Shown here: positions 29,748 to 64,000 of the stretch, one piece after another
Layout of the letters: each line of letters begins with the position of its first letter
Position numbering within the stretch: the first letter of the stretch is position 1
Origin: Acidimicrobiales bacterium
GTDB lineage: Bacteria > Actinomycetota > Acidimicrobiia > Acidimicrobiales > JACCXE01
Direction of reading: 5' to 3'
Length of the DNA stretch: 64,000 bases
Assembly (NCBI GenBank): GCA_035546775.1
Contig: DASZWD010000044.1
Location: forward strand, 1-64,000
Translations under genes and position numbers: made by a program
Notes under the pieces: generated by a model
Databases searched by the model: none
What the model was told of the DNA's origin: nothing
The model's input: only the letters and a program-made list of their open reading frames with translations

Positions 29748-31357
29748 CTGCGCCGCGCTCGCCGCGGCCCACGAGCATCCTGCGCGGCTACGGGCCGTTC
29801 TTCATGCTGGCGATGCTCGTGCTGATGATGGCGGTGTTCGTGCCCTCAAAGGTCCAGTCGGTACGCGACCAGTCGCTGTCGGCCGACCAGGCGCCCGGAG
29901 ACACCGGCAGCGACGTGACGGCGCCGGGCGAAACTGCCACCACCGTCGCCGGCGCCACCGGCAACGTCGCCGCCAAGGCGACGCCGCCGCGCACCAACCC
30001 GTGCACCGACCGTGCGCAGCAGATTCCGGGCGATCCGTACTCACCCCCGTGCGCCACCTTCAGCGGGAGCAACGGCGGCGCCACGACGCGAGGTGTCACC
30101 GGGACCGAGGTCCACCTTGCCATCCGGCAGACGTCGGACGCGTCGCTCGACGACGCCATCGCCGAAGTCGTCGGTACCGACATCGCCGACACACCCGACG
30201 ACGTGAAGCGCACCCTCGACGTCCTCGCCGAGTACTTCAACAAGCACTTCCAGTTCTACGGACGCCACATCGTCCTCGACTACTTCCAAGGCCAGGGTTC
30301 GCTCGCCGCCGAACTGCTCGGCAACGGTCGTGACAAGGCCGAAGTCGACGCCACCCGGGTCGCTACCGAACTCAAGTCGTTCGCCGATCTCACCGCACTG
30401 ACCGAGCCCTACGCCGACGCGCTGGCGCGCCAGAAGGTCATGAACTTCGGATCGCTCCTGATGTCGCGCGAGTGGTACACGCAGCGGCGGCCGTATTCGT
30501 GGAGCCCGCTGCCCGACTGCTCGACGGTGGTCGAGGACGCCACCGAGTACGTCCTCAAGCGCCTGTCGGGTGGCAACGCCGACCTCGCCGGCGGCGACAT
30601 CAAAGGCAAGCCGCGGCGCATCACGATTATCGCCCCGGAGAACGCCTGGTACCAGGAGTGTGTCAAGGCGGCCGAAAAGGTCTTCGCCGCCGCCGGTCAC
30701 CCTCTCGAGGTCGATCCGATCGCGTACCAGCTCGACATCTCGACGTTCTCCAACCAGGCCACGAACATCGTGGCCAAGCTGCGCAGTGAGAACGTCACGA
30801 CGATCCTGTGCGGTTGCGATCCGATCTTTCCGATCTTCCTCTCAGGTGACGCATCGCGCGACAACTACTTCCCCGAGTTCGTGTCGGGGTACGAACTCGA
30901 CATCGTCGGTCAGCTGTGGGACGCCGAGTTCACGAAGCACTCGTTCGGTATCAGCCCGCTCGGACCGAACGTGAGCCAGCCGCCGTACTCGACCATCGGG
31001 TACGCGGCGTACAAGTCGCTGCGCAGCGACGAGCCGGCGCACTCCGTCGACTCGCTGTACTACCAGATGTACCTCTTCGCCATCGGCGTGCAGCTGGCTG
31101 GGCCGAACTTGACGCCGGCCACGTTCGAGAAGGGCATGTTCACCTACGGCGATCACCTTGGGCCCGCGGGTTTGTGGAACTTCGGGCCCGGTGACTACAC
31201 GCCGATGGACGACTTCCACGAGATCTACTGGGACCCGAACAAGATCTCGCCCTACAACTCCAAACCTGGTGCCTGGGCTGATCCGGAGCCGGGGAAGCGC
31301 TACCGCCACGGCGCGAATCAGATGACGCCCGGCCCGCCCAAGATCCCGCAGAGCTGA
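29744..31357 (+). CDS. Membrane-tethered branched-chain-type ABC substrate-binding protein
   Basis: A 537-residue periplasmic-binding-fold type I protein. Residues 15-36 are an uncleaved hydrophobic helix (GPFFMLAMLVLMMAVF) and no lipobox is seen, so it is tethered by a helix. A linker with paired cysteines (NPC and PPC) precedes NGGATTRGVTGTEV, where the folded domain starts. ITIIAPENAWYQECVKAAEK and the C-terminal YYQMYLFAIGVQLAGPNLTP helix match Leu/Ile/Val-binding-type domains. The ligand is unknown. It lies directly before the fused ABC transporter. Confidence 0.87.
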   Translation: MTAPRSPRPTSILRGYGPFFMLAMLVLMMAVFVPSKVQSVRDQSLSADQAPGDTGSDVTAPGETATTVAGATGNVAAKATPPRTNPCTDRAQQIPGDPYSPPCATFSGSNGGATTRGVTGTEVHLAIRQTSDASLDDAIAEVVGTDIADTPDDVKRTLDVLAEYFNKHFQFYGRHIVLDYFQGQGSLAAELLGNGRDKAEVDATRVATELKSFADLTALTEPYADALARQKVMNFGSLLMSREWYTQRRPYSWSPLPDCSTVVEDATEYVLKRLSGGNADLAGGDIKGKPRRITIIAPENAWYQECVKAAEKVFAAAGHPLEVDPIAYQLDISTFSNQATNIVAKLRSENVTTILCGCDPIFPIFLSGDASRDNYFPEFVSGYELDIVGQLWDAEFTKHSFGISPLGPNVSQPPYSTIGYAAYKSLRSDEPAHSVDSLYYQMYLFAIGVQLAGPNLTPATFEKGMFTYGDHLGPAGLWNFGPGDYTPMDDFHEIYWDPNKISPYNSKPGAWADPEPGKRYRHGANQMTPGPPKIPQS

Positions 31358-31359
31358 CG

Positions 31360-34300: not shown

Positions 34301-35097
34301 ACGTGGACTTCGTCGTGCAGCCCGGCGAGATCGTGGGCGTCATCGGCCACAACGGTGCGGGGAAGACGACGCTGATGGACTGCATCTCGGGCTTCACCCC
34401 GCTCGACGGGGGCACCATCCGCGTGGGGGGCGTCGAGGTGAACGAGACCGGGCCGCGCCAGCGCGCCGGGCTCGGGCTCGGGCGCTCGTTCCAAGAGGCC
34501 CGCCTGTTCCCGACGCTGACGGTGGCCGAGACCCTCGCCGTCGCCTGCGAGCGTCACGTGCGGTCGCGCAGCATTCTCGCCGACGCGCTGCAACTGCCGG
34601 CCGCCGTCGAGGCGCAGGTCGACGTGCACGCCACCGTCGAAGAACTCGTCGCCACGATGGGCCTGGCGCCCTACCGCGGCAAGCTCATCGGCGAGTTGTC
34701 GACCGGTACCCGCCGCGTTGTCGACCTCGCCTGCATTCTCGCCCAGCAGCCAGCCGTGGTCCTGCTCGACGAGCCGTCGAGTGGGGTGGCCCAGCGCGAA
34801 ACCGAGGCGCTCGTCGGACTGCTCGAACGCGTGCGCGCCGAGACGGGCTGCGCCATGGTGATCATCGAACACGACATGCCGCTGCTGCGCGCCGTGTGCG
34901 ACCGCATGGTGGCGCTCGAGCTGGGCCGCGTTATCGCCACCGGCACGCCCGAGGAGGTGCTGGCGCACCCGCGGGTGATCGAGTCGTACCTCGGTACGAA
35001 CGCGGCGACGATTTCGCGGTCGGGAGCGCGCCGCAAGCCCGTACGATCCGGCGATGCCAAGCCCAAAGGTCGTGTACCCACCGGCACGACGCGCTGA
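31360..35097 (+). CDS. Four-domain ABC transporter fusion (LivH-LivM-LivF-LivG)
   Basis: A 1245-residue single chain with two permeases and two ATPases. Residues about 35-325 are LivH-like (YRSNRFVNFAFGSMGSLVG), and 365-665 LivM-like (LTGWGGNISLGQFGV, RIRGLFLAVTTIAFA). The first ATPase has Walker A GTNGAGKST (739-747), signature LSGGEQQ (841) and Walker B LLMIDE, as in LivF. The second has GHNGAGKTT (996-1004), signature LSTGTRR (1113) and LLDEPSSG, as in LivG. It starts with GTG just after the SBP stop and overlaps the next gene by 44 nt. Fusion fixes 1:1:1:1 stoichiometry. Substrate unknown. Confidence 0.93.
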   Translation: MTGATSRRGRLVAAVPVLYALAYALPGTGPKLARTAPPAVVAIGVIFGTVTALGAMALILTYRSNRFVNFAFGSMGSLVGVLAIGMYRQHHVPFFVVLPVGVALGAVMGGAVEYVVLRRFRNSSRLVLTVASIGLTQVLGGFEIIGSRAINFVSVTGAFKVPLGLSIDLGVKTLGGDEMLIVIVAPFVLVGLLWFLARTDVGVAVRAAAENESRALLLGVPVRRNTTIVWVLVGGLATLTFILKAPFSGVTPGVASNGPQVLLPALAAAVVARMDSLPTALVAGIGLGILEQVVRWNSTGSPSVINVVFLVVIVGALVLQRNAFSRATEGGEAAWSATGLIRPIPDALRRLPEVRVARVALIVVAGAGLVFVPKLWSPSTQLLAAFAIVWAIVGVSLVMLTGWGGNISLGQFGVVGAGAMVAGNLIARNNMDLLFVLILSGLTGAVVALVIGLPALRIRGLFLAVTTIAFAVALDGYFLNLNNFPQWIPSQVPRPLLFGRFDLENQYTMYLLCVAVLGVWLVVAANLRRARTGRSLIATRDNERAASAASLSVVRLKLSGFMLAGAVAGVAGALHVQLLHSLSPGSYPVTDSITVFSTTVIGGLGSLTGAVTGVLLFRWIESIQALGQLRLVVTGAGLLFVLLALPGGIGQVLVAVRDRALRAVAARRGLDVPEFGNARLDESSALADTPVPAEPTRAARPIVDPILACTGLDLAYGQRQIVFDLDFAVGRGEMVALLGTNGAGKSTLLKGISGLLPPTGGSVHYDGDAITGEAADRTTRRGVSLMLGGASVFPTLTVADNLRMATWLFRKDVARVDAALAEAYALFPVLGERKRQLAGDLSGGEQQMLALAGALMGRPQLLMIDELSLGLAPTVVAELLDVVRAVHARGVTVVIVEQSVNVALELAERAVFMERGQIRFEGKTRDLLARPDLLRSVFIAGTAEVPARTRASAATSADASAPALEVRGVAKRYGGITAVDDVDFVVQPGEIVGVIGHNGAGKTTLMDCISGFTPLDGGTIRVGGVEVNETGPRQRAGLGLGRSFQEARLFPTLTVAETLAVACERHVRSRSILADALQLPAAVEAQVDVHATVEELVATMGLAPYRGKLIGELSTGTRRVVDLACILAQQPAVVLLDEPSSGVAQRETEALVGLLERVRAETGCAMVIIEHDMPLLRAVCDRMVALELGRVIATGTPEEVLAHPRVIESYLGTNAATISRSGARRKPVRSGDAKPKGRVPTGTTR
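35042..35047 (+). promoter_or_regulatory. Putative -10 element (TACGAT), leaderless
   Basis: TACGAT lies 6 nt before the prolyl oligopeptidase ATG, inside the 3' end of the ABC fusion gene, suggesting separate transcription of the peptidase. Confidence 0.4.
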
Positions 35098-48707: not shown

Positions 48708-49543
48708 TGATCACCCGCACCGTGAAGGCCAACGACGTCGAGCTCGCGCTCGTCGAGCAGGGCATGGGCAACGCCGATCGCGTGCTGCTCGTGCACGGCT
48801 TCGGCGGCTCGAAGGAAGACTTCACGCACTACCTGCCGCGGCTCGGCGCGCTGGGGTGGCACGCGGTGGCGCCCGACCTGCGCGGCCACGGCGACTCGTC
48901 GAAGCCCGACGACGAGTCGGCGTACTCGCTGGCGCAGCTCGCCGATGACCTGCGAGCCCTGCTCGACGCCCTCGGCTGGGACGACGCCGTCGTGCTCGGC
49001 CATTCGATGGGCGGCATGGTGGTGCAGGTGTTCGCGCTGGGGCACCCCGGGCGCGTGCGGTCGCTCATCCTCATGGACACGAGCCACAAGTTGCCCGACC
49101 ACGTCGACCCGTCGATGGTGGCCGCCGGCCAGGCCGTGGTGCGCGAGGGCGGTACCGATCTGCTGGTGTCGATCGGCGAAGGCGCCACCGAACCCGGCCC
49201 GCTCGACACCCAGCCCTATCTCGACATGTGCGCGGCGGACCCGGCGTACAAGGCATGGTCGGACTTCAAGACGCGCAACACCGCGGGCCCGGCGTGGGCC
49301 GCGCTCGCCGGTGACATGGCGTTACAGGAAGACCGGCTGGAGAAGCTGCGGTCGCTCACGATGCCGACGCTCGTCGTCGTGGGCGAGATGGACCACGGCT
49401 TCATGCCCCAGTCGATCGCCATGAGCGAAGCCATCCCCGGCGCGCAACTCGCCGTCATCCCCGGCGGTGGCCACAGCCCGCAGTTCGAGGCGCCCACCGC
49501 GTGGTGGGACGTCGTGCGCGCTTTCCTCGACGCGGCGCGCTAA
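48707..49543 (+). CDS. Alpha/beta hydrolase
   Basis: A 278-residue serine hydrolase. LLVHGFGGSKEDF is the oxyanion loop, VVLGHSMGGMVVQ holds the nucleophile, VVGEMDHGF the acid and PGGGHSPQFE the histidine. It belongs to the broad esterase/peroxidase-like group; substrate unknown. Its ATG overlaps the end of the lipoprotein gene (TGATGA), so a lipid ester is a reasonable guess. It is convergent with the small membrane protein gene. Confidence 0.9.
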   Translation: MITRTVKANDVELALVEQGMGNADRVLLVHGFGGSKEDFTHYLPRLGALGWHAVAPDLRGHGDSSKPDDESAYSLAQLADDLRALLDALGWDDAVVLGHSMGGMVVQVFALGHPGRVRSLILMDTSHKLPDHVDPSMVAAGQAVVREGGTDLLVSIGEGATEPGPLDTQPYLDMCAADPAYKAWSDFKTRNTAGPAWAALAGDMALQEDRLEKLRSLTMPTLVVVGEMDHGFMPQSIAMSEAIPGAQLAVIPGGGHSPQFEAPTAWWDVVRAFLDAAR

Positions 49544-50184
49544 CCCACCGAGTGGGCCGGCGTCGGTCCCTTGGCGATGAAGGTCCCGGCGATGCGGGTG
49601 ACGTCCAGATCAACGGGCCGCAGCTCGAACTCCGCGGTGATGCGGTTGCTCTCGGCACTGATCACCGTCGGCGCGCCGACGGCGTGGGCGAAGAGCTTGA
49701 CCGTGAAGCCGCGTACGCGCAGCGCCGCTTGCAGCTCGGCGGCGGTCTTGACGAACGAGCTGCCCTTCGCCGTCGACACACGCCGCACCTCGCTGCACGA
49801 CGGGCGGCATCGGCCGTTGCCGATTCGCACCTCGTGCACTTTCACGCCCGGCAAGCCGAGGTGGTCAGCGAGGACGCTGAGCCGCGCCGGTGACGGCGTG
49901 GCTCCGTGCGCCGCCAGCGGCATGCATGCGATGCCCACGACCATGGCGACGGCCGTCACCGCGGTGCGCCACGCGTGGGCGCCGGCGAACAACCACGCGG
50001 CGATCGCGGCTGGGACCGGCACGCACAGCCCGAGTGCGAGTCGCGCGTGTTGCAGCCCGCCGACGGCGAACGTGCGGGCGAGCACCGTGCCGGCGACGAT
50101 GCACGCCCCGCCGCCGATCGCGGCTGCGGGCACACCGCGCCAAACCCGCGGCGGCTCGTCAGGGATGTCGAGGATGCCGGTCAA
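49540..50184 (-). CDS. Small membrane protein of unknown function
   Basis: A 214-residue protein with about three N-terminal helices (AAAIGGGACIVAGTVLA; LALGLCVPVPAAIAAWLF; TAVTAVAMVVGIACMPL) and a C-terminal soluble domain of about 110 residues with two close cysteines (GRCRPSCSEV). I do not recognise it. The TTG start overlaps the stop of the upstream anchored protein as TTGA, making it the last gene of the SBP operon. Confidence 0.65.
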   Translation of the reverse strand: MTGILDIPDEPPRVWRGVPAAAIGGGACIVAGTVLARTFAVGGLQHARLALGLCVPVPAAIAAWLFAGAHAWRTAVTAVAMVVGIACMPLAAHGATPSPARLSVLADHLGLPGVKVHEVRIGNGRCRPSCSEVRRVSTAKGSSFVKTAAELQAALRVRGFTVKLFAHAVGAPTVISAESNRITAEFELRPVDLDVTRIAGTFIAKGPTPAHSVG

Positions 50185-51584
50185 AAGACCGCGCTGTGAC
50201 GTCTCCGCACGAACACGAACCCGGCGCCGAGCAAAACCGCCGGCGCGATCAGCAGCCCGATAACGAGGACGATGCCTGACGGAGGTGCCGCCGTCGCCGC
50301 GGTATCGCGCAACGCGCTGCGGTTGAGTTGCAACCCATCGGCGTTGAACTGCTGCGTCGTGCCGAGGCCGATACCGGCGATGTCACTGTCAGGCTCGACC
50401 GGAGCCAGCGCGATCGTCGGCACGTCGCCGCCCGAGTTGTCGGTGGGCGTGTTGATCGGCGTGATCTCACCGTCGGGCGATTGCGTGATCGGCGTGCCCG
50501 TCAACGGGTCGAGCAGTTCGAAGGGCTTCGTGAACACTTCGTCGCTCAGGAACGCGGTGAGCTTGTAGCTCGTGGCCGTGCCGCCGGCCGATTGGATGAC
50601 GAGGTCGTACTCGTCCTGCGTCGCCACGAACCCGAGTTGTTCCGGCACGTTCTCGATGCTGGTGCCGCCGATCCCGTCAAGGGCGTGGTCGGGCGCGTCG
50701 TAGACGTACATGTTGAGGTCCGGGACGGGCCGGCTCACCAGACCCGTCGCTACCGCGTTGAGCGCCGGCACGGTCACCGCGCTCCAGTCGAGCTGGATGA
50801 CGACGAAGTTGGTGGCGTCTTTCGACAGATTGCGGTTGAGCTTGATGCGATACACGTCGCACAACTGCTCGTAGCCCGGCTGGCTGCGGCAGGCGTCGGG
50901 GAAGAAGTCGAGGAGCGGCTGGCCGGCGACGATCACGCTCGAGTACTCGTGCTGGAACGGCGCCGCGTGCGGGGTGAGCACGATGTCGGGCGTGACGGAC
51001 CCGCTCGCCAGCGTGGCCGACGCCACGTAGGACACGGTGAGCTTGTAGCCCGTGACCGCGCCGGCGTAGGCCTGCACGACGATGTCGTACTCGTCCTGGT
51101 CGGGCACGATCTTGATCTGCTCCGGCGACGTCTGGCCGGCGCCGCCGACCTTCGTGGAGTCGAAGGCGCTCGTGGCGTTGTCGAACAGGAACAAGTCGAG
51201 GTCCGGTACCTGGGCCAGCGTCGGGTCGCCTTCGGCCTGCCACTCGAGGGTGACGCGCAACTGGAAGTTCTTGTCAGGCGTGCGGTTGACCTTCAGCCGG
51301 TGCGCCGCACACGTCAGGCCGATCGCCGCGTTCTTGCGGCAGTCGTCGGGATGCGACTTCACCTCCGCGCTTCCGATCAGCGTTCGTGAGAACTCCATCG
51401 GCACGGTGTCGCCCGGGTTGACCACGAAGTCCGGCTTCACGCCCGGCGTGACGCCCGCGCTGGCGGAGGTGGGGGCGAGCACGATCGCGCCGGCGCCGAG
51501 GCCCGCCAGGGTCGCAGCGAGGACGAGCACGACGGTGGACGCGCGGCGAGAAACAGAACGGAGCAGCCCCAGCACGGAGTCCAA
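50181..51584 (-). CDS. Exported anchored protein, IAGIGLGTTQ family (paralogue 3)
   Basis: A 467-residue exported protein. After the signal peptide (cleavage near SASAG) come two beta-sandwich repeats that look like PPC-type domains. Each has a Cys pair, a VPDLD/VPDLN strand, and the signature QDEYDIVVQ or QDEYDLVIQ with GYKLTV or SYKLTA. Then follow a linker, the motif DIAGIGLGTTQQFN, a PPSG turn, one helix and RRRH. The body is thus outside and the tail inside. It is the third of three tandem paralogues, 24 nt after the second. Confidence 0.8.
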   Translation of the reverse strand: MDSVLGLLRSVSRRASTVVLVLAATLAGLGAGAIVLAPTSASAGVTPGVKPDFVVNPGDTVPMEFSRTLIGSAEVKSHPDDCRKNAAIGLTCAAHRLKVNRTPDKNFQLRVTLEWQAEGDPTLAQVPDLDLFLFDNATSAFDSTKVGGAGQTSPEQIKIVPDQDEYDIVVQAYAGAVTGYKLTVSYVASATLASGSVTPDIVLTPHAAPFQHEYSSVIVAGQPLLDFFPDACRSQPGYEQLCDVYRIKLNRNLSKDATNFVVIQLDWSAVTVPALNAVATGLVSRPVPDLNMYVYDAPDHALDGIGGTSIENVPEQLGFVATQDEYDLVIQSAGGTATSYKLTAFLSDEVFTKPFELLDPLTGTPITQSPDGEITPINTPTDNSGGDVPTIALAPVEPDSDIAGIGLGTTQQFNADGLQLNRSALRDTAATAAPPSGIVLVIGLLIAPAVLLGAGFVFVRRRHSAVF

Positions 51585-51608
51585 GTGTAGAGAAGCCTGC
51601 GGCGGGAA

Positions 51609-52997
51609 CTAAATGAGCGCTTCGTGGCGGCGGCGCAGCGCCCAGAACCCCGCGACCAACACGAGCAGCGGGAACAGCACCAGCGCGAGCACCAGCACGA
51701 AGCCCGACGGCGCCGGACCCGTCGCCGCAGTGTTGCGCAGCGCACTGTGTCCGAATTGCACACCGTCGGGGTTGAATTCCTGCGTCGTGCCGAGCCCGAT
51801 GCCGGCGATCTGGGAGTCGGCGTCGACCGGGGCGAGCGGCAGCGTGCCGATCGCGTCGCCCGAGTGGTCGGGGATGAGGCCGGCCAGGTTGTTGCTGTCG
51901 TCGAGCGGTGCGCTCCCGACGGGTTGACCGGTGAGCGGGTCCAGCACCTCGAACGGCTTACTGAACAGCTCGTCGGTCATGTAGGCCGTCAGCTTGTAGC
52001 TCGTGTCGGCGCCGAGGTCGCACTGGACGACGACGTCGTATTCGTCTTGGGTGGCCGTGAAGGCGGCGCGCTCGGGTTCCGTGGAGTCGTTGCCGCCGAT
52101 GGCCTGGTAGCCCAGTTCGTGCGTCGGCGTGTCCCACACGTAGATGTTGAGGTCTGGCACATAGCCGAGGCCGAGGCCGGCCGCGACGAGCGCGAGGTCG
52201 GGCAGCATCGTGCCGTCCCAGTCGAGCTGGAGGACCACGAAGTTCTGCGCGCCCTTGGCCGTGCTGCGGTTGAGCTTCAACCGGTACACGTCGCACAGGC
52301 CGTTGTACGCCGGGTTGTTGCGGCAGTCGTCGGGATGCTGGTGGACGACGGGATACAGCGCCGGCTCACCGTTCTCACCCGCCAGCACCGTCGAGTACGT
52401 CTTGGCGAACGGGGCCTGATTCGGGCTCAGCACGATGTCGGGGGTGACGTTGCTGATCTTCGACCCGCCGTTCTCGTAGTACACGGTCAGCTTGTAGCCC
52501 GTAATGGCGCCGGCGAAAGCCTGGACCACCACGTCGTATTCGTCCTGGGCCGGCACGAACTTGGCCTGCTCGGGCATGGTGCTGCCGGCGCCGCCGACCT
52601 GGCCGTCGTCGAGCGACGAGTTCGGGCCGGTGAACACGAACATGTCGACGTCGGGCACCGAGTTGATGCTGCCGGCGGCCGCGGTCCACTCGAGGACGAT
52701 GCGCAGCGTGTAGCCCGCCGCGCGGTTCACGTGGATGCGCCGAGCGTCGCAGGTGAGGCTCTCGACGGGATCGGTGCGGCACGCGCTGGGCGGGTTGGTA
52801 ACCGCCCCGCCGTTGCCTACCAGCGTTTTGGAGAACGACTGCGTCTTGGTGTCTCCGGGGTTGACGGTGAAGTCCGGCGTGTGCGGCGCGAGCGCGTCGG
52901 CCTGGGCCCGCGTGGGCGCAAGGGTGAGTGCGAGTACCCCGGCAAACGTCAGCAGTAGCGACGTGACGAGCGCGATGAACCGACGCTGAGTTGTCAC
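51609..52997 (-). CDS. Exported anchored protein, IAGIGLGTTQ family (paralogue 2)
   Basis: A 462-residue paralogue of its downstream neighbour. A signal peptide ends near RAQADA; two PPC-like repeats follow, with QDEYDVVVQAFAGAITGYKL and QDEYDVVVQCDLGADTSYKL. The membrane-proximal motif is QIAGIGLGTTQEFNPDG, then APSG, one helix (VLVLALVLFPLLVLVAG) and LRRRHEALI. It starts with GTG at 52997, 16 nt after the first paralogue. Ligand or partner unknown. Confidence 0.8.
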   Translation of the reverse strand: MTTQRRFIALVTSLLLTFAGVLALTLAPTRAQADALAPHTPDFTVNPGDTKTQSFSKTLVGNGGAVTNPPSACRTDPVESLTCDARRIHVNRAAGYTLRIVLEWTAAAGSINSVPDVDMFVFTGPNSSLDDGQVGGAGSTMPEQAKFVPAQDEYDVVVQAFAGAITGYKLTVYYENGGSKISNVTPDIVLSPNQAPFAKTYSTVLAGENGEPALYPVVHQHPDDCRNNPAYNGLCDVYRLKLNRSTAKGAQNFVVLQLDWDGTMLPDLALVAAGLGLGYVPDLNIYVWDTPTHELGYQAIGGNDSTEPERAAFTATQDEYDVVVQCDLGADTSYKLTAYMTDELFSKPFEVLDPLTGQPVGSAPLDDSNNLAGLIPDHSGDAIGTLPLAPVDADSQIAGIGLGTTQEFNPDGVQFGHSALRNTAATGPAPSGFVLVLALVLFPLLVLVAGFWALRRRHEALI

Positions 52998-53013
52998 TGT
53001 CCCAAATGTACCG

Positions 53014-54015
53014 TCAGGTGAGCAGGGCTTGACGGCGCCTTCGAAGGGCGAAAACGCCAACCGCCGCGGTCGCGAGCGGGACGGCCACGAGGCCCAGGAC
53101 GAGCGCGACGCCCGAGGGCGGTTTGGCAGTGGCCGCGACGTCACGCGTGCGCGGCGGTAACGCGAAGCCGTTCGGGTTGAACTCCTGCGTCGTGCCGAGG
53201 CCGATGCCGGCGATGTCCTGATCGGGGGTCACCGATGCTTCGGGCAGCGCGATCGTCGGGGCTTCGCTCGACGTGTCCGCCGGCGGCGTGAAGGTCGGCT
53301 CGGGACTCGACGTGTCGCTCGGCGCCGCGGTGTTGCCGAACTGGTCGAGCACTTCGTGCGGCGCTGTGAAGATCTCGTTCGAGAAGGTCAGGTGCAGGTC
53401 GTAACCCTGGTTGACACCGGCGTCCGCCTGGACGGTGATGTCGTAGATGCGCTGCTTGGCGGTGAACCCGCCGCGCTCGGGTTCGTTGAACGACGCCGCG
53501 CCTGTCGGCTCGTCGTTCGGATCGCCGGGACCGGTGACGGGATCGAGCGTGCCCGGCGCGTTCTCGCCGAGCCAGTGGTCCTCTTGGTCCCACACGTAGA
53601 CGTCGAGGCCGTTGACCGGCGGTGGGTTGAGTCCGAGCGCGACGAGGGGCAACGACGGCAACTGCGTCTGGTTGAAGTCGGCCTCGATGAAGACGGTGTT
53701 GTCCGCCCTCGGATCCGGGTCCAGGTTCAACACGATCCGGTACGCCTTGCACGTGAGCGGCGCGACGCTCTCGTCGAGCGACGCCGCTTTGCCGCGGCAC
53801 GCGCTCGGCGGATAGATCTCCTGGTCGCCCACGAGCGGCGTCGTGTTCTTGAGCACGATCGACTGACCAACCGACAGCGTCGCCGTCGGCTTCACCGACG
53901 GAGCCAGCGGTTCGGCGGCAACGCCGCCGGAACCGGCGACCAGGACCAGGCCGACGGTCGCGACGAGCGCGACGCACCCGGTGATGCAAGCGATGCGCGC
54001 CGCGGCTCGTCGCAC
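53014..54015 (-). CDS. Exported anchored protein, IAGIGLGTTQ family (paralogue 1, short)
   Basis: A 333-residue shorter paralogue with one main beta-sandwich region. It keeps the first Cys pair (SACRG, LTCKAYRI), a GLDVYVWDQ strand, the RIYDITVQADAGVNQGYDL signature, then DIAGIGLGTTQEFNPNG, PPSG, one helix and LRRRRQALLT. The GTG start overlaps the SBP stop by one base (TAGTG), so it is second in the operon. The tight link to the SBP suggests a complex at the membrane. Confidence 0.8.
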   Translation of the reverse strand: MRRAAARIACITGCVALVATVGLVLVAGSGGVAAEPLAPSVKPTATLSVGQSIVLKNTTPLVGDQEIYPPSACRGKAASLDESVAPLTCKAYRIVLNLDPDPRADNTVFIEADFNQTQLPSLPLVALGLNPPPVNGLDVYVWDQEDHWLGENAPGTLDPVTGPGDPNDEPTGAASFNEPERGGFTAKQRIYDITVQADAGVNQGYDLHLTFSNEIFTAPHEVLDQFGNTAAPSDTSSPEPTFTPPADTSSEAPTIALPEASVTPDQDIAGIGLGTTQEFNPNGFALPPRTRDVAATAKPPSGVALVLGLVAVPLATAAVGVFALRRRRQALLT

Positions 54016-55862
54016 TAGGGGTTCCTGGCGGACAGGAACGTCAGCGCGTGGCCCCCGTAGCCGTTACACGGATCGTTCGGTGACTTCGTCGTCGTGAACT
54101 CTTGTTGCGGGAAGGTGCCGTACAAATACCGCTTGGCGTTTTGCACCATGCGCCAGCAGCCGGCGTTCTGCGAGTTCGGTGCGGTGGCGTTGGCGTCCCA
54201 CCACATGGCGACGCCGTCCTTCACGCAGCTGTAGTCGTCGGTGTTGTAGAAGCACGCCGGCGTGCCGGGGTCGTCGGACGCGATCTTCGGGATGGCGTGG
54301 TAGCCCTTGTCGATCGACGTCGGGCCGAGCTTCGGCCCCGCCACCTGGATGCCGGTGAAGAGCTGGCGGAAGCGTTCGTAGAGGTCACAGGCGCGCGACC
54401 GGATGTCCTGGTCGGGGGCGGAGGGATCGGCGTCCTTGTAGGCGAGGAAGCAGGGCTCCTCTTCGAACTTCACCTTCTTCGTCTGGTAGGTGACGACCAC
54501 CGCGTGGCCGCCGAAGGCGCGCGCGTTCTGGTACTGCGTCGACACGAACCCGTCGGTTTCGGCGTCGCCCAACTGGACCCACTCGGGGAAGTAGTTCATC
54601 TGCGCGGCCGCGTCGCTGAACTTGGACTCCATGCCGCCGGGCCAGATGATCGTGGTCACCGGGCCCCCGGCTTGTCGGGGGTCGGAGAACTTGGCCATCT
54701 GCGTTCGGCCGTACGTCTGGTCGGTCTGCGGGTCGTTGTTGTCGGCGTAACAGCACGTGTCCCACGTCGCGTTGGGGATGTTCGCCTGGTCGATCGGGCA
54801 CTGCTGCTTGATGTTGGTCATCACGAGGTCCTTCAGCTTCTGGAGCTCGGGATGCAGCTTGTCGGTCGAGTAGATCAGGCCGTACTTGCGCTTCTTGCCC
54901 ACGAGGTCGCCGCCGGCGAACGTCGTGGTGTCCGATGCGTTCTTGATCTGCTTGCAGAAGAAGTCGGCGTACTCCTGCGCCTGGTCCTCGAGCGTGGGGG
55001 AGTAGCCCCACACCAGCTTGGGATACTGCTGGTAGAAGCTGCGCTGACGGCCGAGGAAGGCGCCGAAGTTCAGCACGCCGCGCTTGGTCATTGCTTCGAG
55101 GTAGGCATCGTTCGATGCCAGCGAGTCGGAGATGACGGCGAAGGGCTGGATCTTCTGGTAGTTGTCCGCCGCGTCGGCGCGCTTGGTTTCGGGGCCGTCG
55201 TCGGAGCGGCTGCCGTAATAGACCCAGAAGTGGGCGTGGCGGCAATAGAGCTGATAGCGGTCCTCGAAGTACTTCGCCCAGCCCCGCGTCAATCGCGCGT
55301 AGATGTGCTCGTCTTGCGCTTCGGGTTGATCGAGGTCGTAGTACTTGTTCGCCGGCCGGCTCTCGTCACCGCGGCTGGTGCCGGTGTCGACGATGCCGGA
55401 GTCCTCGTAGAGGATGATGCGGATCTCGTTGCCGGTGACGCCTTGATAGGTGGCGCCGCCGTTCTGGTTGCAGTTCGGATAGTCGGGCACGCACGGCGGG
55501 GCGAGCGGATCTTCGGTCTGTTTGGGGCCCTTGGGCGTCTGGACGCAACGCTTCGTGCTGCGGTTCTTGCCCGGGTCGCTCTGCTGCGTGCCTTGGTCGC
55601 CGCCTTCGGCGCCGCCGGTGTTGATCGACGAGCTCTGGCCGAGCCCGAATTGGTCGAAGTTTCCGATTGGCGGCGGCGTGGTGTCGTCCTGGGGCGGCAC
55701 CGGCGCGTATTCGAGCGTGGTGGAGGGGTTCGTCTGCGGGAGATTCAGCGCGCTCGGAAGAACGATCAGCGCGATGAGCAAACCACCGATGAGAAGAAGT
55801 AGCGGGGCGCCTTTTCTCGCGTTTTGCGATCCAGCGCGCCCCGGCCCAGCTGTTGCCGCCAT
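54015..55862 (-). CDS. Membrane-tethered ABC-type substrate-binding protein (second)
   Basis: A 615-residue periplasmic-binding-fold protein related to the SBP at 29.7 kb. Residues 18-42 are an uncleaved helix (PLLLLIGGLLIALIVLP) with no lipobox. A Pro/Gly/Gln-rich linker leads to APPCVPDYPNC and NGGATYQGVTGNEIRI, the same entry motif as its relative. The domain carries extra cysteines (CFLAYKD, TPACFYN, YSCVKD), suggesting disulfides. It is first in the leftward operon; its ATG has TACGAT 8 nt upstream. Ligand unknown. Confidence 0.82.
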   Translation of the reverse strand: MAATAGPGRAGSQNARKGAPLLLLIGGLLIALIVLPSALNLPQTNPSTTLEYAPVPPQDDTTPPPIGNFDQFGLGQSSSINTGGAEGGDQGTQQSDPGKNRSTKRCVQTPKGPKQTEDPLAPPCVPDYPNCNQNGGATYQGVTGNEIRIILYEDSGIVDTGTSRGDESRPANKYYDLDQPEAQDEHIYARLTRGWAKYFEDRYQLYCRHAHFWVYYGSRSDDGPETKRADAADNYQKIQPFAVISDSLASNDAYLEAMTKRGVLNFGAFLGRQRSFYQQYPKLVWGYSPTLEDQAQEYADFFCKQIKNASDTTTFAGGDLVGKKRKYGLIYSTDKLHPELQKLKDLVMTNIKQQCPIDQANIPNATWDTCCYADNNDPQTDQTYGRTQMAKFSDPRQAGGPVTTIIWPGGMESKFSDAAAQMNYFPEWVQLGDAETDGFVSTQYQNARAFGGHAVVVTYQTKKVKFEEEPCFLAYKDADPSAPDQDIRSRACDLYERFRQLFTGIQVAGPKLGPTSIDKGYHAIPKIASDDPGTPACFYNTDDYSCVKDGVAMWWDANATAPNSQNAGCWRMVQNAKRYLYGTFPQQEFTTTKSPNDPCNGYGGHALTFLSARNP

Positions 55863-56040: not shown

Positions 56041-57054
56041 ATGGCACCTCGTAAGACCGCTTCCCGTGCAGTCGCGACCGCTCGCAGTTCGAGCGCTTCG
56101 TTGAATGCTCAAACGTTCAAGAAGAACTTCGACAAGATCGTCGACAACATCGAGACGGTGTTGAAGGGCAAGCCCGACGTGGTCCGCCTCGCGCTCGTTG
56201 CCATCCTGTGCGAGGGCCACATCCTGTTCGAAGATGTGCCGGGCACCGGCAAGACGGTGCTCGCCCGCGCCATCGCCCAGTCGATCGACGCCACGACGCA
56301 GCGCGTGCAGTGCACGCCCGACATGCTGCCGGGTGACATCACCGGTTCGTCGATCCTCGACCAGAAGACCGGCAAGTTCGAGTTCCACCCGGGTCCGGTG
56401 TTCGCCAACGTGTTGCTGGCGGACGAGATCAACCGTGCGACGCCCAAGACCCAGTCGTCGCTACTCGAGGCCATGGCCGAGCGCCGCGTGTCGGCCGACG
56501 GCGTCACCTACGACCTGCCGCGACCCTTCCTCGTGCTCGCCACGCAGAACCCGATCGAGCAGGCCGGCACGTTCCCGCTGCCCGAAGCGCAGCTCGACCG
56601 CTTCCTGTTCAAGATGTCGATGGGCTACATGGACCGCGGCGCCGAGTTCGACGTGATGTTCGCCAACTCGGGTCAGCTCGCCATCGAGGACCTCGGGGCG
56701 GTCACCGACACCAAGGAGATTCAGCGGATGATGGCCTACGCCGGCGATGTCGAAGTCGGCGACGACGTGGCGTATTACATCGTCGACTTGGTGCAGGCGA
56801 CGCGCAACGACGCCCACATCGCCATGGGCGGTTCGCCGCGAGCCACCATCAACTTGCTCAAGGCGTCGCGCGCGCTGGCGGCGAGCGACGGGCGCACCCA
56901 CGTGTATCCCGACGACGTGCGCACCGTGCTGCCCCACATCATGGCCCACCGCATCGTGCTCAACCCCGACGCCATCCTGCGTGGTGAAGACGTCAGCAAC
57001 GTCCTCGACCGGGTGACCAACCAGGTGAAGCCGCCGGTTTCCGCCAAGAAGTAA
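56041..57054 (+). CDS. MoxR-family AAA+ ATPase
   Basis: A 337-residue AAA+ chaperone. Walker A is [14 protein letters not shown], Walker [16 protein letters not shown], sensor 1 [20 protein letters not shown], and the lid contains [18 protein letters not shown]. MoxR proteins act with DUF58/VWA partners to assemble or activate other proteins. It heads a rightward operon with a DUF58 gene 25 nt later, matching the known MoxR-DUF58-transglutaminase arrangement. Confidence 0.95.
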
Positions 57055-57079: not shown

Positions 57080-58399
57080 ATGCCTACCGGCACCCAGAAG
57101 CTGTCCCTCGGCCGTCGGCTGCGCGCGCGCTACGACGCGCTCAGCGATGCACTCGCGCCCGGCGCGCTGCGCAAGCGCACCGAAGAGATCAAGCGCAAGA
57201 CCGGGCTGCGGGTCTACGGCGTCGTCGCCCTGATCGGTGCGGTGCTCGTGTGGCTCATGGCCCGGGTCGTGGCCGGCACCGCGATGTATCTCTTCGCCTA
57301 CGGCCTGGTGCTGCTGTTCGGCATCTGCTTCTTCCTGGCACCGCGCAACCTCAAGCTGAAGGGCGAGCGCGCTGGCTTGTTCCCGCGCGCGCACGAAGGT
57401 GACCGCCTCGAGGTCGAGGTGTCGCTCGAAGCCCAGCGGGGCGTGTCGACCTTCGTGCTCGAAGAGCGCGTCCCGGAGCGACTCGGCCAGCCCGTGCGCG
57501 TGCCGATCACCAAGTTGTCGTCGGGCGAGAAGCTGACCCATCGCTATTCGGTGCGCTGCACACGCCGCGGCGTCTACGACGTCGGTCCACTCGTCGCCGT
57601 GAAGGGTGATCCGCTCGGCCTGACCCAGCGCGAGACGCTGATCGCCGAGCCTTTCCAGCTGCTCGTGCATCCGCGCATCGAGGTGGTGTCGGACCGCCCG
57701 CTTACCCGTCAGTTCGAGGATCCGCCCATCCGTCCGCCGGTGTCGAAGCCGTGGCCGTCGGGTCTCGAGTTCTACGGCATGCGCGAGTACAAGCCGGGCG
57801 ACGACCTGCGCCGCATCGTGTGGCGCGCCTCGGCGCGTACCGGCAAGATCATGGTGCGCGAGGCCGAGCAGGGGATCACGGACAAGATCACGATCATCCT
57901 CGACACCGACCGCGGCTCGCACAGCCGCGACGGCGAAGGCCTGTCGGAGAGTTTCGAAGCGGGCGTGCGCGCCGCGGCGTCGCTCGCAGTACGTCACCTG
58001 CGCGAGGGCTACGAGATCAAAGTCGAAACCAACGGCGGGCCGCTCACGCGGTCGCTGCGCGGGGCCCAGCAGCAACTGCCGCTGCTCGACGCGTTCGCCA
58101 AGGTGGAGATGGGGCGCGAGCCGCTCGGCACCGTCATTCGTCGCCTGCTCGGCAACGCGCAGCGCGACGCCCACAACATCCTCATCACGCCCCACCTCGG
58201 GGCGGGCGAAGCGGCTCAGCTCAAGCTGCTGCTGAACAAGGGTGTATCGATCCTCGTCGTCGCCCTCCTGTGGAACGAGGAGGAGAGCGAGACGGCCGGT
58301 ATGGCCGCCGCTCTCGGTTGCCAGGTGGCGAGCGTTCGTCCCGGCGGTGACCTCGCGTCCGCGCTGTTCAACAACATTGGCGCCGGGAACCGGGTGTAG
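57080..58399 (+). CDS. DUF58-family membrane protein
   Basis: A 439-residue protein. Two helices lie at residues 45-90 (VYGVVALIGAVLVWLMARVV; YLFAYGLVLLFGICFFLA). A beta-rich ectodomain-like part follows (YSVRCTRRGVYDVGPLV, DPLGL). The DUF58 signature is FYGMREYKPGDDLRRIVWRASARTG spread over residues 232-256. A VWA-like domain follows (IILDTDRGSHS, AASLAVRHLREGYEIKVET). It is the usual MoxR partner. It lies between moxR and the transglutaminase-like gene. Confidence 0.93.
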   Translation: MPTGTQKLSLGRRLRARYDALSDALAPGALRKRTEEIKRKTGLRVYGVVALIGAVLVWLMARVVAGTAMYLFAYGLVLLFGICFFLAPRNLKLKGERAGLFPRAHEGDRLEVEVSLEAQRGVSTFVLEERVPERLGQPVRVPITKLSSGEKLTHRYSVRCTRRGVYDVGPLVAVKGDPLGLTQRETLIAEPFQLLVHPRIEVVSDRPLTRQFEDPPIRPPVSKPWPSGLEFYGMREYKPGDDLRRIVWRASARTGKIMVREAEQGITDKITIILDTDRGSHSRDGEGLSESFEAGVRAAASLAVRHLREGYEIKVETNGGPLTRSLRGAQQQLPLLDAFAKVEMGREPLGTVIRRLLGNAQRDAHNILITPHLGAGEAAQLKLLLNKGVSILVVALLWNEEESETAGMAAALGCQVASVRPGGDLASALFNNIGAGNRV

Positions 58400-58407
58400 G
58401 TGTAGCC

Positions 58408-60678
58408 GTGGCCACCACCGAACAAGACCTCAAGGCGCTCGAAGAAGACGTTCTCGAACGGCTGAGCAGCGAGGCCGGCGGCGTCGAAGCCGACATCGAA
58501 AGCGCCGCGGCGCAGCCCGAAGAGACCGAGCCGGAACAGCCCGTCGCCCGCCTCGCCATCGCCATCGCCTTCCCGGTGATCGCGGCGGCCGTGATGGTCG
58601 GCGGCGTCTTCACCGGCGTGTCGCCGCGCATCTACGGCGCCGTTGCCGGCCTGCTCGGTATCGGCCTCGCCGTCGTCGCCAATCGCCAGCGGCGCCTCGG
58701 CGCCACGCTCGGGATCGTCGCCGCCGGCATCTTCGTAATCGGTGCGCTGATGCTGCTGCCCGACGTCGGCAACATCGGCTCGATCACCACACTCGTAAGA
58801 GAAGCAAACCAGCAGGGCGACGTGCTGCGGCCACCGGTGCCGTTCGTGCCCGGTTGGCACGTGGTCATCGGTTGGTTGATGGCGGTCGTCGGCTTCTCCG
58901 CCGCCTGGGTCGCGCTCGCGTTCCGCAAGCCCGCGCTGGCGCTCGTCATCCCGGTGCCCTTCGCTGCTCTCGCCGGCATCAGCGTGCCGAAAGACCAGCA
59001 GGTCACATCGGGCATCGTCGTGCTCGTCCTGTTCGTGTTCGGCCTCGTACTGCTGTCGTCCAACTCCGGGCTCGAGGGCGACGAAAAGCCTTCGGTCGGC
59101 TACGAGCTGCGCAACGCCTTCCGGTCGTTGATCGTCATCGCCCCCGTCACCGTGGCGCTGATCGTGGCCAGCCAGCTGAACTTCCTCTTCCCGAAGCCGG
59201 CGATCAACCCCGCCGAGCAGCCGCAGAAGCCGAAGACGACGCCGCTGTCGAAGGTCGTCGACCGGCCACTGTTCCGCGTCCGCTCGGACCTCTCCGGTCC
59301 CTGGCGCATGGGCAGCCTCGACGTGTACGACGGCAAGGACTGGCGCCTCGCACCGGTTGCGGACGCCAACGTCAAGAACGTGCCGAAGAGCGGCATCATC
59401 GACCCGGAGTTGACGCCCCGCATCGACGCTCACTTCCAGGTGCTCGGCTTGACCGGCGCGGTGCTGCCTGGTTTGTCGAACACGGTCGGCCTTCAGGCCA
59501 AGGGCATCGTGCCGTCCTTCGACTACCGCTCCGGCAACATCCGCCTCGCGGCCGGCACGCTCAAGCGCGGCCAGGAGTACACGGTGCTCGCTGCCGGCCT
59601 GCCGTCGATCAAGGACCTCGAGGGCGCGTCGACGTCCATCCCGGCGGACGTTCTGAAGTTCACCGAGGGTGTCGGTGACCCGCCGCCGGCGGTGGTGAAG
59701 CTGCTCAACCAGGCGAACGCGTTGCCAACGCAGTGGGATCGCTTCGATTTCCTGCGCAACTACGTGCTCGACAACGTGGTGGCGACCGGACCCGGTGTGC
59801 CCGTGTCGATCGACTCGGCGCGCGTGGATCAGATCCTCACGAGTCTCGAGGGCACGCCGTATGAGATCGTCGCCACGCAGGCGATGCTCGCCCGCTGGAT
59901 CGGCCTGCCGTCGCGCATCGCGTTCGGCTTCGACGGTGGCGAGGACGTCGGGAGCCACACGCTTGAGATCCGGCCCAAGAACGGCGCCACCTTCGTCGAG
60001 GTGTACTTCCCGGGCTTCAAATGGGTGCCCGTGGTCGGCGTGCCGAAGCACGCCAAGCCGTCGCTGTCGAACGACAGCGGCCAGCAGCAAACCAACCCGA
60101 ACATCCTGCCGAGCGACGAAGTGAACGTGTCGGTGTTCTTGCCGACGATCACCGCACCGAAGTCCGTTTTCGGAAAGCAACTGCTGCGCGGCCTCGAGAT
60201 CGGCGTGCCGATCATCCTGCTCATTCTCCTGATCTATTCGACCTATCCGGCGCTGCGGAAGGCGCGCATCCGGTCGCGCCGCCGCGGGGCCGCCGCGGCG
60301 ATCGGACCCCGCGCGCGTATCGCGCTCGCCTACGCCGAGTTCCGCGACGTCGCCACCGACTTCGGCTTCGCCCACCCGAGCGACACGCCGCTCATGTACC
60401 TCGAGCGTTTCATCGACGACGACGAGCACACCGAACTCGCCTGGCTCGTCACGCGTGTCCTGTGGGGCGACCTGCAGGACGACGCCAGCTTCGAGCTGGC
60501 GGTGGCAGCCGAAGAGCTGTCGCGTTCGCTTCGCCGCCGCCTCGGCACCGCGCAGCCCGCGACGGTGCGGTTCGTCGCGGCGGTGTCACGCTTGTCGTTG
60601 CGCAATCCCTTCGCCCCCGATCTCAATGCAGCTCTTTCGAGCGGGAAGGAAGCAGATGCTGCAGAAGCTGCTGCCTAG
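58408..60678 (+). CDS. TgpA-like transglutaminase-fold membrane protein lacking the catalytic triad
   Basis: A 756-residue protein with a cytosolic acidic N-terminus, about six helices (residues 48-265), a transglutaminase-core-like domain (about 420-545), one helix (IGVPIILLILLIYS) and a cytosolic tail. The core motif around WIGLPSRIAFGFDGG is clear. Against the usual C...H...D pattern, the Cys position is Pro484 (GTPYE), the His position Ala527 (GATFVEV) and the Asp position Val543 (WVPVV). It is therefore probably a pseudoenzyme. The GTG start is 8 nt after the DUF58 stop. Confidence 0.88.
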   Translation: MATTEQDLKALEEDVLERLSSEAGGVEADIESAAAQPEETEPEQPVARLAIAIAFPVIAAAVMVGGVFTGVSPRIYGAVAGLLGIGLAVVANRQRRLGATLGIVAAGIFVIGALMLLPDVGNIGSITTLVREANQQGDVLRPPVPFVPGWHVVIGWLMAVVGFSAAWVALAFRKPALALVIPVPFAALAGISVPKDQQVTSGIVVLVLFVFGLVLLSSNSGLEGDEKPSVGYELRNAFRSLIVIAPVTVALIVASQLNFLFPKPAINPAEQPQKPKTTPLSKVVDRPLFRVRSDLSGPWRMGSLDVYDGKDWRLAPVADANVKNVPKSGIIDPELTPRIDAHFQVLGLTGAVLPGLSNTVGLQAKGIVPSFDYRSGNIRLAAGTLKRGQEYTVLAAGLPSIKDLEGASTSIPADVLKFTEGVGDPPPAVVKLLNQANALPTQWDRFDFLRNYVLDNVVATGPGVPVSIDSARVDQILTSLEGTPYEIVATQAMLARWIGLPSRIAFGFDGGEDVGSHTLEIRPKNGATFVEVYFPGFKWVPVVGVPKHAKPSLSNDSGQQQTNPNILPSDEVNVSVFLPTITAPKSVFGKQLLRGLEIGVPIILLILLIYSTYPALRKARIRSRRRGAAAAIGPRARIALAYAEFRDVATDFGFAHPSDTPLMYLERFIDDDEHTELAWLVTRVLWGDLQDDASFELAVAAEELSRSLRRRLGTAQPATVRFVAAVSRLSLRNPFAPDLNAALSSGKEADAAEAAA

Positions 60679-61780: not shown

Positions 61781-64000
61781 ATGCTCAACAACCTCCTCCC
61801 GGTCGGTAGCCGGGCCCGATCAATTGCCTTCAGCGTCGCCGCTCTCGTCGTCGCGCTGATCTACGTGCAGTTCGTGCTGCCGGGAACTCCCGGCGGTGGT
61901 CGCGGCACGCCGATGGCGATCCTGTTCAACGGCCTGGTCAACGGCTGTGCGTACGCGCTCACCGCGCTCGGCCTCGTGCTCGTCTACCGCTCGCTGCGCA
62001 TCATCAACTTCGCGCAGGTCGCGCTCGGCGCCGTCGGCGGACGGTTGTTCTTCCTCTTCATGCAGTTCACCCCCGTGCCGTTCCCGATCGCCATCGTGGT
62101 GTCGATCGCCGTCGGCGCGGCGATCGGACTCGCGGTCGACCTCACCTTCGGCCGCAAGTTCTTCAACGCGTCGCGCGTCGTGCTCACCACGGTGACGATC
62201 GCGTTGTTGCCCATGGTGGGCGGCGTGCTCCCCAACCTGGTGCCGTCGCTACCGATCTTCCCGCGACCGGGATCGCTGTCCGTCCAGGAACAGGCGGGCG
62301 CGGTGCCCTCGCGGCCGTTCTTGCCGTTTGCCGGTTGGCACTTCCGGGTCGGCCACTACACGACGAACTACGGGTTCCCCGAAGTGCTCAACATCGAGCT
62401 GTTGATCTTCGGCCTGATCGCGGTCGTGTGCATCCTGCGCTACACGCGCGCCGGTGTCGCCGTGCGAGCACTGGCGGAGAATTCCGAGCGGGCGAGCCTG
62501 CTCGGCATCCCCGTCGGCAATCTGTCGTCGATCGTGTGGTGCATCGCGGGTGCGCTCGGCACGCTCAGCGTCATCGGTGTCGGGGCGCTCACGTCGCCGG
62601 CTGCGGGCGCCGGTAGCGGCGTCGCCGTGCCGCTGCTGCTGTTGCCGTTGACCGCCGCGGTGCTGGCTGGCTTCACCAGCATCCCGATTGCGGTCTTCTC
62701 GTCGCTGGTGATGGCGACCGTGGCCAACGCCTTCACCTACAGCTACCCCGAAGACAAGGGACTGCTGTCGTTCGCCTACTTCTTGATCGTGGGCGCGGTG
62801 TTCCTCCTCCAGCGGCGTCGGAAGGGTCGCAGCGAAGAGGGCTCGGGTGTGGCGTGGGCGGCAGTGAAGGAGCAGCGCCCGATCCCGAAGGAGATGGCGA
62901 AGGTCGCCACTGTGCGCACCACCCGTTGGGTGCTCGTCGCCGTCGTCGGCCTGTTCGTCCTCGTCTATCCGATCATCGTGCCGGCCCGTTACCAGTTCCT
63001 CGGCGGCACGATCCTGCTGCAGTCCATCATCGGTGTGTCGCTCGTCGTCCTCACCGGTTGGGCGGGTCAGATCTCGCTGGCGCAGTTCTCCTTCGCCGCC
63101 GTCGGTGCCGCCGTTGCGGGCGCGCTCACCGCCCGCCACGGCATCCCGTTCTGGTTCGCCGTCCCGATCGCGACGGCGGTGGCCGCGGCGTTCGCCGCGC
63201 TCATCGGCATCCCGGCGCTGCGCCTCAAGGGACTGTTCCTCGCCGTGACGACGCTGGGACTCGCCATCGCGACGAGCGACATCCTGTTCGACGACAAGTA
63301 CTTCGGCTGGCTGCTGCCGAAGGGTGCCGTCGATCGCCCGCGCCTGTTCTTCCTCGACTTCCAGCAGGACCGCCCCACCTACTACCTGTGCCTCGCCTGC
63401 TTGGTGCTCGTGATCGTGATCACGCTCAACCTGCGGCGCAGTCGCTTCGGCCGGCTTCTCATCGCGATGCGCGAGAACGAGGCGAACGTGCAGAGCTTCG
63501 GCGTGTCCGCCACGCGGCTCAAGATCACTTCGTTCGCGGTGTCCGGGGCGATGGCGGGCTTCGCCGGCGCGGTACTCGTGCACCAGCAGCGCGGCCTCGA
63601 CCCGCAGCTGTTCGTCCCGCAGCGCAGCCTCGACGTGTTCCTCTTCACCGTCATCGGCGGCGTTGGCTCCGTCGGCGGCGCTCTGCTGGGTTCGCTGTTC
63701 GACAACCTGTTCCGCTACTTCGTTCCGAGCAACGACTTCCTGGCCACGGCCACCAGCGTGTTGCAGGGCGGCGGCGCTGCCCTCTTCGTGCTGTACCTGG
63801 CGCCAGCGGGGCTCATCGACGTTGCCATCAAGATCCGCGACGCCTGGCTGCGCATCATCGCCCAGCGGCGCCAGATCGTCGTGCCGAGCCTGTTCGCCGA
63901 CTACGACCCGGCGCTGCTCGAGCGGCGGCTCATCCCGCTCGCCGATCCTGACGCCCACAGCGGCCTGGCCGCCCTTGGCGCCGGCGCGCACTTCCGTCTT
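61781..64000 (+). CDS. Fused LivH-LivM branched-chain-type ABC permease (3' end outside window)
   Basis: At least 740 residues with no stop before the right edge. Residues 45-330 are LivH-like (FNGLVNGCAYALTALGLVLV, YRSLRIINFAQVALGAVGG; VRALAENSERASLLGIPVG). Residues 380-690 are LivM-like (VLTGWAGQISLAQFSF, RLKGLFLAVTTLGLA, AMRENEANVQSFGVSATRLK). The chain then enters a linker (PSLFADYDPALLERRLIPLA) comparable to the one before the first ATPase in the 1245-residue fusion, so ATPase domains may follow. It is the last visible gene of the MoxR operon, 18 nt after the lipoprotein stop. Confidence 0.9.
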   Translation, partial: MLNNLLPVGSRARSIAFSVAALVVALIYVQFVLPGTPGGGRGTPMAILFNGLVNGCAYALTALGLVLVYRSLRIINFAQVALGAVGGRLFFLFMQFTPVPFPIAIVVSIAVGAAIGLAVDLTFGRKFFNASRVVLTTVTIALLPMVGGVLPNLVPSLPIFPRPGSLSVQEQAGAVPSRPFLPFAGWHFRVGHYTTNYGFPEVLNIELLIFGLIAVVCILRYTRAGVAVRALAENSERASLLGIPVGNLSSIVWCIAGALGTLSVIGVGALTSPAAGAGSGVAVPLLLLPLTAAVLAGFTSIPIAVFSSLVMATVANAFTYSYPEDKGLLSFAYFLIVGAVFLLQRRRKGRSEEGSGVAWAAVKEQRPIPKEMAKVATVRTTRWVLVAVVGLFVLVYPIIVPARYQFLGGTILLQSIIGVSLVVLTGWAGQISLAQFSFAAVGAAVAGALTARHGIPFWFAVPIATAVAAAFAALIGIPALRLKGLFLAVTTLGLAIATSDILFDDKYFGWLLPKGAVDRPRLFFLDFQQDRPTYYLCLACLVLVIVITLNLRRSRFGRLLIAMRENEANVQSFGVSATRLKITSFAVSGAMAGFAGAVLVHQQRGLDPQLFVPQRSLDVFLFTVIGGVGSVGGALLGSLFDNLFRYFVPSNDFLATATSVLQGGGAALFVLYLAPAGLIDVAIKIRDAWLRIIAQRRQIVVPSLFADYDPALLERRLIPLADPDAHSGLAALGAGAHFRL

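Follow-up and report, generated by a model that had tools for sequence, protein, structure and literature searches.

Anchored PPC-fold proteins encoded next to a tethered Liv-type binding protein and divergently from a MoxR-DUF58-pseudotransglutaminase gene cluster in Actinomycetota

Three tandem genes of an Acidimicrobiales bacterium encode exported, membrane-anchored proteins that carry the identical stretch IAGIGLGTTQ close to the membrane, which raises the question of what these proteins do there and whether the stretch marks a fixed contact. They were noticed in a sequence-only reading of the window, by which we mean the whole 64,000-nucleotide stretch of DNA (contig DASZWD010000044.1) that was analyzed. 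The reading described three tandem anchored paralogues, and we recovered them as the open reading frames c3, c2, and c1, all on the minus strand and downstream of the gene for a binding protein, SBP1, which runs in the same direction:

54018..55862, minus strand: SBP1, putative Liv-type (type I) substrate-binding protein with an N-terminal transmembrane (TM) tether, 615 aa
53017..54015, minus strand: c3, signal peptide, one predicted PPC-fold domain, linker, TM helix, RRRR tail, 333 aa
51612..52997, minus strand: c2, signal peptide, two predicted PPC-fold domains, linker, TM helix, RRRH tail, 462 aa
50184..51584, minus strand: c1, signal peptide, two predicted PPC-fold domains, linker, TM helix, RRRH tail, 467 aa

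The c3 gene overlaps the end of the SBP1 gene, whose likely start was set by alignment. For c2 we took the GTG at 52997 as the start, from which a longer open reading frame extends upstream across the tail of c3. As had been claimed for the long copies, the PPC-like repeat that bears QDEYD[ILV]V[VI]Q and YKLT occurs twice in both c1 and c2; c3 contains one copy and is the single-domain form, like the orthologues. The alignment of the three proteins has 95 invariant positions among 300 gap-free columns, with a pairwise identity of 38-52% in the exported part and of 39-55% in the TM helix and tail, and both the triplication of the gene and the duplication of the domain were seen only in the window genome. 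The stop of c1 is overlapped by 4 bases by the start of another minus-strand gene (window 49540-50184), whose 214-aa product is predicted to have three TM segments and has no relative beside the other PPC genes in the neighborhoods compared.

The term "PPC-like" came from the sequence-only reading, and a search of the proteins against Pfam and NCBIfam gave no match above the cut-offs; the Pfam PPC model hit c1 only, with 14.5 bits against a gathering cut-off of 25.9, and a profile of the PPC proteins had no match among the PDB sequences. An AlphaFold2 model, built from nine relatives and covering the second domain of c2 and the C-terminus, shows a beta sandwich in which most 10-residue blocks have a pLDDT of 73-94, followed by a linker that holds the motif (pLDDT <50) and lies between the domain and the C-terminal TM helix. 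The top Foldseek matches of the domain were Tk-SP, the collagen-binding domain (CBD) of ColG, and the PPC domain of Bacillus collagenase, with which VIA-align gave VIA-Z values of 8.2-9.0 over 96-106 residues at an rmsd of 2.2-2.9 (Tk-SP beta domain, ColG CBD, and PPC). On the strength of the predicted structure, the exported domain appears to have the PPC/collagen-binding-domain fold, and the term is right as a statement of fold, though the Pfam score is below threshold. Matches at a VIA-Z of about 7, which included enterotoxin domains, calpains, GOLD domains, and claudin complexes, were set aside as the common likeness of beta sandwiches and not kinship.

SBP1 had no Pfam or NCBIfam match either. 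Its structural model, which is of moderate confidence, matches LIV-binding proteins (4kv7, E=6.3e-12; 1z15, E=5.7e-10), which points to a type I periplasmic-binding fold like that of LivJ. Divergent from SBP1 we found the following genes:

56041..57051, plus strand: MoxR AAA+ ATPase (Pfam AAA_3, E=4.5e-62, and AAA_lid_2)
57080..58396, plus strand: DUF58 protein (Pfam DUF58, E=2.9e-10)
58408..60675, plus strand: TgpA-like membrane protein (Pfam TgpA_N and Transglut_core) with a transglutaminase-fold domain that, by catalytic alignment, has no catalytic residues
60656..61759, plus strand: X60455, lipoprotein-like secreted protein (signal peptide, AC) of a locus-specific family with orthologues in the same place
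61781..64000, plus strand, continuing past the window: LivH-LivM fused permease, LivHM (Pfam BPD_transp_2 twice)

For X60455 there was no Pfam or NCBIfam match above the cut-offs. After LivHM, at about 64.2 kb, comes a fusion of MFS, LivF, and LivG (L050:1-3152; G000:C44 from 64001), whose domain content was read on the orthologue from genome G395 (L110:10180-13155; Pfam MFS_1, E=6e-27) and which is kept in related loci. With the BPD_transp_2 pair of the permease and two ABC domains of the BCAA type, the cluster contains a Liv-type ABC set. Several lipoproteins and then a mycosin-like S8 subtilase with a C-terminal TM helix follow beyond the window. This protease and the next gene pair, which we take to be TldD/TldE-like, lie downstream of the Liv genes at L050:5785-10028 (G000:C44, about 69785-74028), and the protease is also encoded in G395 and near SBP1 in G409. 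The window holds a second Liv cluster as well (28419-35094, plus strand), in which a 442-aa protein that has a signal peptide, a TM anchor, and a weak "choice-of-anchor P" match is accompanied by a tethered Liv-type binding protein and by a 1245-aa LivH-M-F-G fusion. Relatives of the 442-aa protein are encoded ahead of comparable binding proteins in L052, L063, and L068, and ahead of a Liv fusion in L067.

A genomic association of the anchored proteins with MoxR-DUF58 or Liv-type genes had been suggested, and it was borne out by the distribution of their relatives. A profile of the three proteins found relatives in 3 other genomes among 395 of the class, each directly 3′ of an SBP1 homolog. 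A scan of genome contigs with the SBP1 alignment gave seven loci, all from Actinomycetota MAGs (two of them labeled Acidimicrobiia or Acidimicrobiaceae), and a sample of the phylum added five genomes outside the class. The 3′ flank of SBP1 is intact in 12 loci, and in 10 of them a PPC-TM gene follows directly (the window, G079, G212, G197, L074, L075, G409, G433, and G533 twice; in G409 and G433 the assignment relies on weak similarity plus position and architecture); L073 and G405:C159 have none there. The relatives are linked to SBP1 in several actinomycetote lineages, the locus being seen in several families of Acidimicrobiia and in other classes of the phylum, and they usually also have MoxR-DUF58 genes and Liv permease fusions near by. 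L075 preserves the full order, MFS-LivFG, LivHM, (X,) TgpA, DUF58, MoxR and, divergently, SBP1 and PPC; so do L074 and G079 to the extent that genes were called there, L070 and G533 have the same order (with the PPC gene lost to the contig end in L070), and the divergent MoxR-TgpA-LivHM arrangement of G419 agrees as far as its contig reaches. In G212, the SBP1-PPC pair and the MoxR cluster are on different contigs, and no pseudo-TgpA was found in G197. Our simple gene finder left some genes uncalled in several loci, so we claim no absences there.

We then considered the motif itself, which occupies the same place in the three proteins:

53185..53214, minus strand: IAGIGLGTTQ of c3, at -66 from the C-terminus
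51780..51809, minus strand: IAGIGLGTTQ of c2, at -66 from the C-terminus, in the segment with pLDDT <50
50352..50381, minus strand: IAGIGLGTTQ of c1, at -66 from the C-terminus

With 10 residues it is the longest invariant run in the alignment of c1, c2, and c3, the next longest being 3 residues (P=0.00125, shuffled columns). The claim that it is better conserved than the exported domains holds among the three window copies, where pairwise identity is 92-100% in the motif (95% for the motif region, against 35% for the domain). Across genera the relation is reversed: identity drops to 17% in the motif region but is 23% in the domain of the same proteins, and the orthologues have FGLGRPIS, FGLATPIA, or FADDAFDQ at this position. 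No relative turned up when 84,980 species genomes were scanned for LGTTQ[EQ]FN; the same-genus genome G395 is uninformative, as no PPC genes were found in it but its contig ends inside SBP1. Judging from these sequences, the motif is a feature of the window genome's copies, of selective or conversion origin, and absent from the orthologues. A class-wide role for it was rejected, and the proposal of a C-terminal sorting signal conserved across genera fails on the same comparisons. The fixed contact near the membrane that had been argued for at IAGIGLGTTQ is not supported in that form either, given the different sequence in orthologues, the predicted disorder of the segment, and codons that are unusually alike.

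The codons bear on the origin of the identity. Only 5 synonymous differences occur in them, against 13.8 ± 3.2 expected from independent draws (P=0.004, an optimistic value, as the region was chosen after seeing it), which suggests that part of the identity may be recent homogenization. Gene conversion, or a constraint at the DNA level, among young tandem copies could even account for all of it, the motif having no role of its own in the protein; the lack of the motif in other genera and the restriction of the triplication and domain duplication to the window genome would fit this explanation. However, the tract is about 39 bases with divergent flanks, short for conversion, and selection alone can yield identical amino acids, so we regard this reading as possible but somewhat unlikely. 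A further alternative is that IAGIGLGTTQ is a processing or sorting site, where for example the mycosin-like subtilase encoded downstream, itself anchored in the membrane, would cut and release the PPC domains. The placing of the motif in the flexible stretch that joins the domain to the TM helix, its constant distance from the C-terminus, and the presence of such a protease in the same region of G000, G395, and G409 are consistent with cleavage, but the G409 orthologue lacks the motif with the protease encoded near by, and so do all other orthologues; we consider this highly improbable. To our knowledge, the motif resembles no known sorting signal.

A juxtamembrane segment that is conserved across genera does exist, but it sits in SBP1 and not in the PPC proteins:

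55629..55760, minus strand: SBP1 juxtamembrane segment LPSALNLPQ...EYAPVPP...GNFDQFGLGQSS, conserved across actinomycetote classes

Directly after the TM helix, 14 SBP1 proteins from several classes share the consensus LPS[AS]LN[LI]PQ[AST]NP[ST]...E[FY]AP[VI]PP...G...[FL]GL[AG]. Mean pairwise identity is 70% in this segment, against 39% in the binding domain and 16% in the adjoining linker. By eye, LGLG of SBP1 and GIGLG of the PPC proteins look like a shared docking motif, a likeness that matrix scoring did not support: a matrix of eight SBP1 segments did not pick the PPC motif, and scores did not exceed those of shuffled sequences except for one marginal match elsewhere in c1.

The catalytic Cys, His, and Asp are absent from all 13 aligned copies of the TgpA-like protein, in which [GA]-[TS]-P-[YF]-E replaces GYCEQ and neither HAW nor FEPTP occurs, whereas two control proteins, ordinary TgpA copies encoded in the same set of genomes, retain all three residues. 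Three further copies from outside the class also lack the Cys. As far as the alignment tells, the domain cannot be an active transglutaminase. Strong matches to this pseudo-TgpA (>190 bits) were found in 4 of 385 class genomes, all four with SBP1; the next best match scored 97 bits. One Acidimicrobiaceae MAG, G398, has seven TgpA homologs of this type (on C25, C27, C48, C61, and C80; L101-L106 and L111). Most of them are accompanied by MoxR/DUF58 and Liv permease genes, with LivHM and/or MFS-LivFG genes alongside in at least five of the neighborhoods and tethered binding proteins near several, which indicates that the Liv link of the MoxR-DUF58-TgpA module extends beyond the PPC loci.

Taken together, the proteins, the PPC fold, the adjacency to SBP1, the synteny across classes, the conservation of the SBP1 segment, and the loss of catalytic residues are the observations on which our preferred model builds. 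According to this model, to which we give an even chance, c1, c2, and c3 would serve a Liv-type ABC uptake system with a tethered SBP1 as extracytoplasmic accessory subunits, each held by its C-terminal anchor, and the membrane complex of this system would be assembled or regulated by the MoxR-DUF58-pseudotransglutaminase module. SBP1 would capture the solute while remaining tethered to the membrane, and its juxtamembrane segment would dock on the LivHM permease or on the pseudotransglutaminase domain. By binding SBP1 itself, or else a polymer of the wall or of the cell exterior, the PPC domain may keep the complex suitably spaced from the membrane, and the AAA+ module, together with a transglutaminase-fold domain that only binds, may assemble or regulate the complex. 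The window lineage would have triplicated the PPC proteins and doubled the domain in two of them, and IAGIGLGTTQ could act as a short linear motif, specific to these copies, by which the flexible stalks of all three paralogues use one docking site. Against the model, the PPC protein is not obligatory, as the two SBP1 loci without it show, and the separate clusters of G212 and the undetected pseudo-TgpA of G197 also count against it. The PPC proteins, unlike SBP1, also diverge fast, which is more what one would expect of a variable ligand-binding protein than of a rigid structural part. A more specific version, in which the MoxR-DUF58 motor acts through the dead transglutaminase domain on the opposite face of the membrane and loads, gates, or assembles the Liv permease with two tethered extracytoplasmic subunits, the SBP1 segment serving as a docking strap, would make this a novel type of AAA+-serviced transporter supercomplex; we think it unlikely as it stands.

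The same genes could instead form a locus for envelope assembly or surface display, in which MoxR-DUF58-TgpA services anchored beta-sandwich proteins, with the PPC proteins acting as adhesins or sensors and the Liv genes as passengers. The bifidobacterial PFNA operons, as presented in the passages of PMC8430577 devoted to them, do combine the gene for an FN3 protein with neighbors that encode an AAA-ATPase, a DUF58 protein, and a transglutaminase, and both the likeness of the PPC fold to collagen-binding domains and the rapid divergence of the exported part would agree with such a role. Yet the PPC genes belong to the transcription unit of SBP1 and not to that of MoxR, no Pkb2-type kinase gene was recognized among the neighbors compared by sequence, and the MoxR clusters of G398 adjoin Liv permeases, several with anchored binding proteins, without a PPC gene, which makes the Liv system the constant partner of the module. 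We consider surface display improbable, and we retain the accessory-subunit model as the working one.

We found no description of this locus in open-access papers, a search outside whose coverage most subscription journals lie. What is probably a nutrient-uptake locus that joins a tethered binding protein, a transporter, an ATP-driven chaperone, and a dead enzyme, and that is widely conserved in actinobacteria, has thus no prior description that we could find. Few clients are known for the widespread MoxR-DUF58-TgpA operons. A module that is repeatedly tied to one membrane machine and that includes a non-enzyme transglutaminase domain would offer a concrete client to test. The locus also points to a second mode of Liv-type import, by way of a binding protein that stays at the membrane throughout, with the PPC proteins and the juxtamembrane segment of SBP1 as specific handles.

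Each part of the locus has a counterpart among known systems. With the Liv-type (HAAT) LivJ/K-LivHMGF transporters it shares the LIV-binding fold predicted for SBP1, the LivH/LivM permease, and the LivF/LivG ATPase domains; it departs from them in the TM tether of SBP1 and its conserved juxtamembrane segment, in the joining of LivH and LivM in a single chain, in the fusion of LivFG with an MFS domain, and in the added MoxR, DUF58, pseudo-TgpA, and PPC genes. The PPC and bacterial collagen-binding domains (PF04151; CBD 3b of ColG, beta domain of Tk-SP) seem to have the same fold as the window domain, which differs from them in lacking an attached protease, in being followed by a TM anchor, in having a Cys pair of its own (CR..C), and in scoring below the Pfam cut-off. 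The nearest described arrangement that we found is the PFNA operon, given as pkb2-fn3-aaa.atp-duf58-tgm in those passages (PMC8430577), with which the window shares the MoxR-DUF58-transglutaminase-like order and a nearby anchored beta-sandwich protein. In the window, however, PPC takes the place of FN3 and is encoded in the operon of the binding protein, the transglutaminase site is lost, and a Liv transporter is linked; the passages on the operon mention neither a Liv link nor a loss of the active site, and they describe the function of DUF58 as unknown. In a listing and sequence comparison of the neighboring genes, none was recognized as a kinase or FN3 gene. Finally, as in the MoxR-VWA pairs NorQ/NorD and RavA/ViaA, to the extent that these are treated in parts of PMC9976466 and PMC12067865, a MoxR AAA+ ATPase stands beside a DUF58 protein, a VWA-linked family, which by analogy suggests a remodeling role, but the constant neighbor of MoxR-DUF58 in the loci described here is an ABC transporter.
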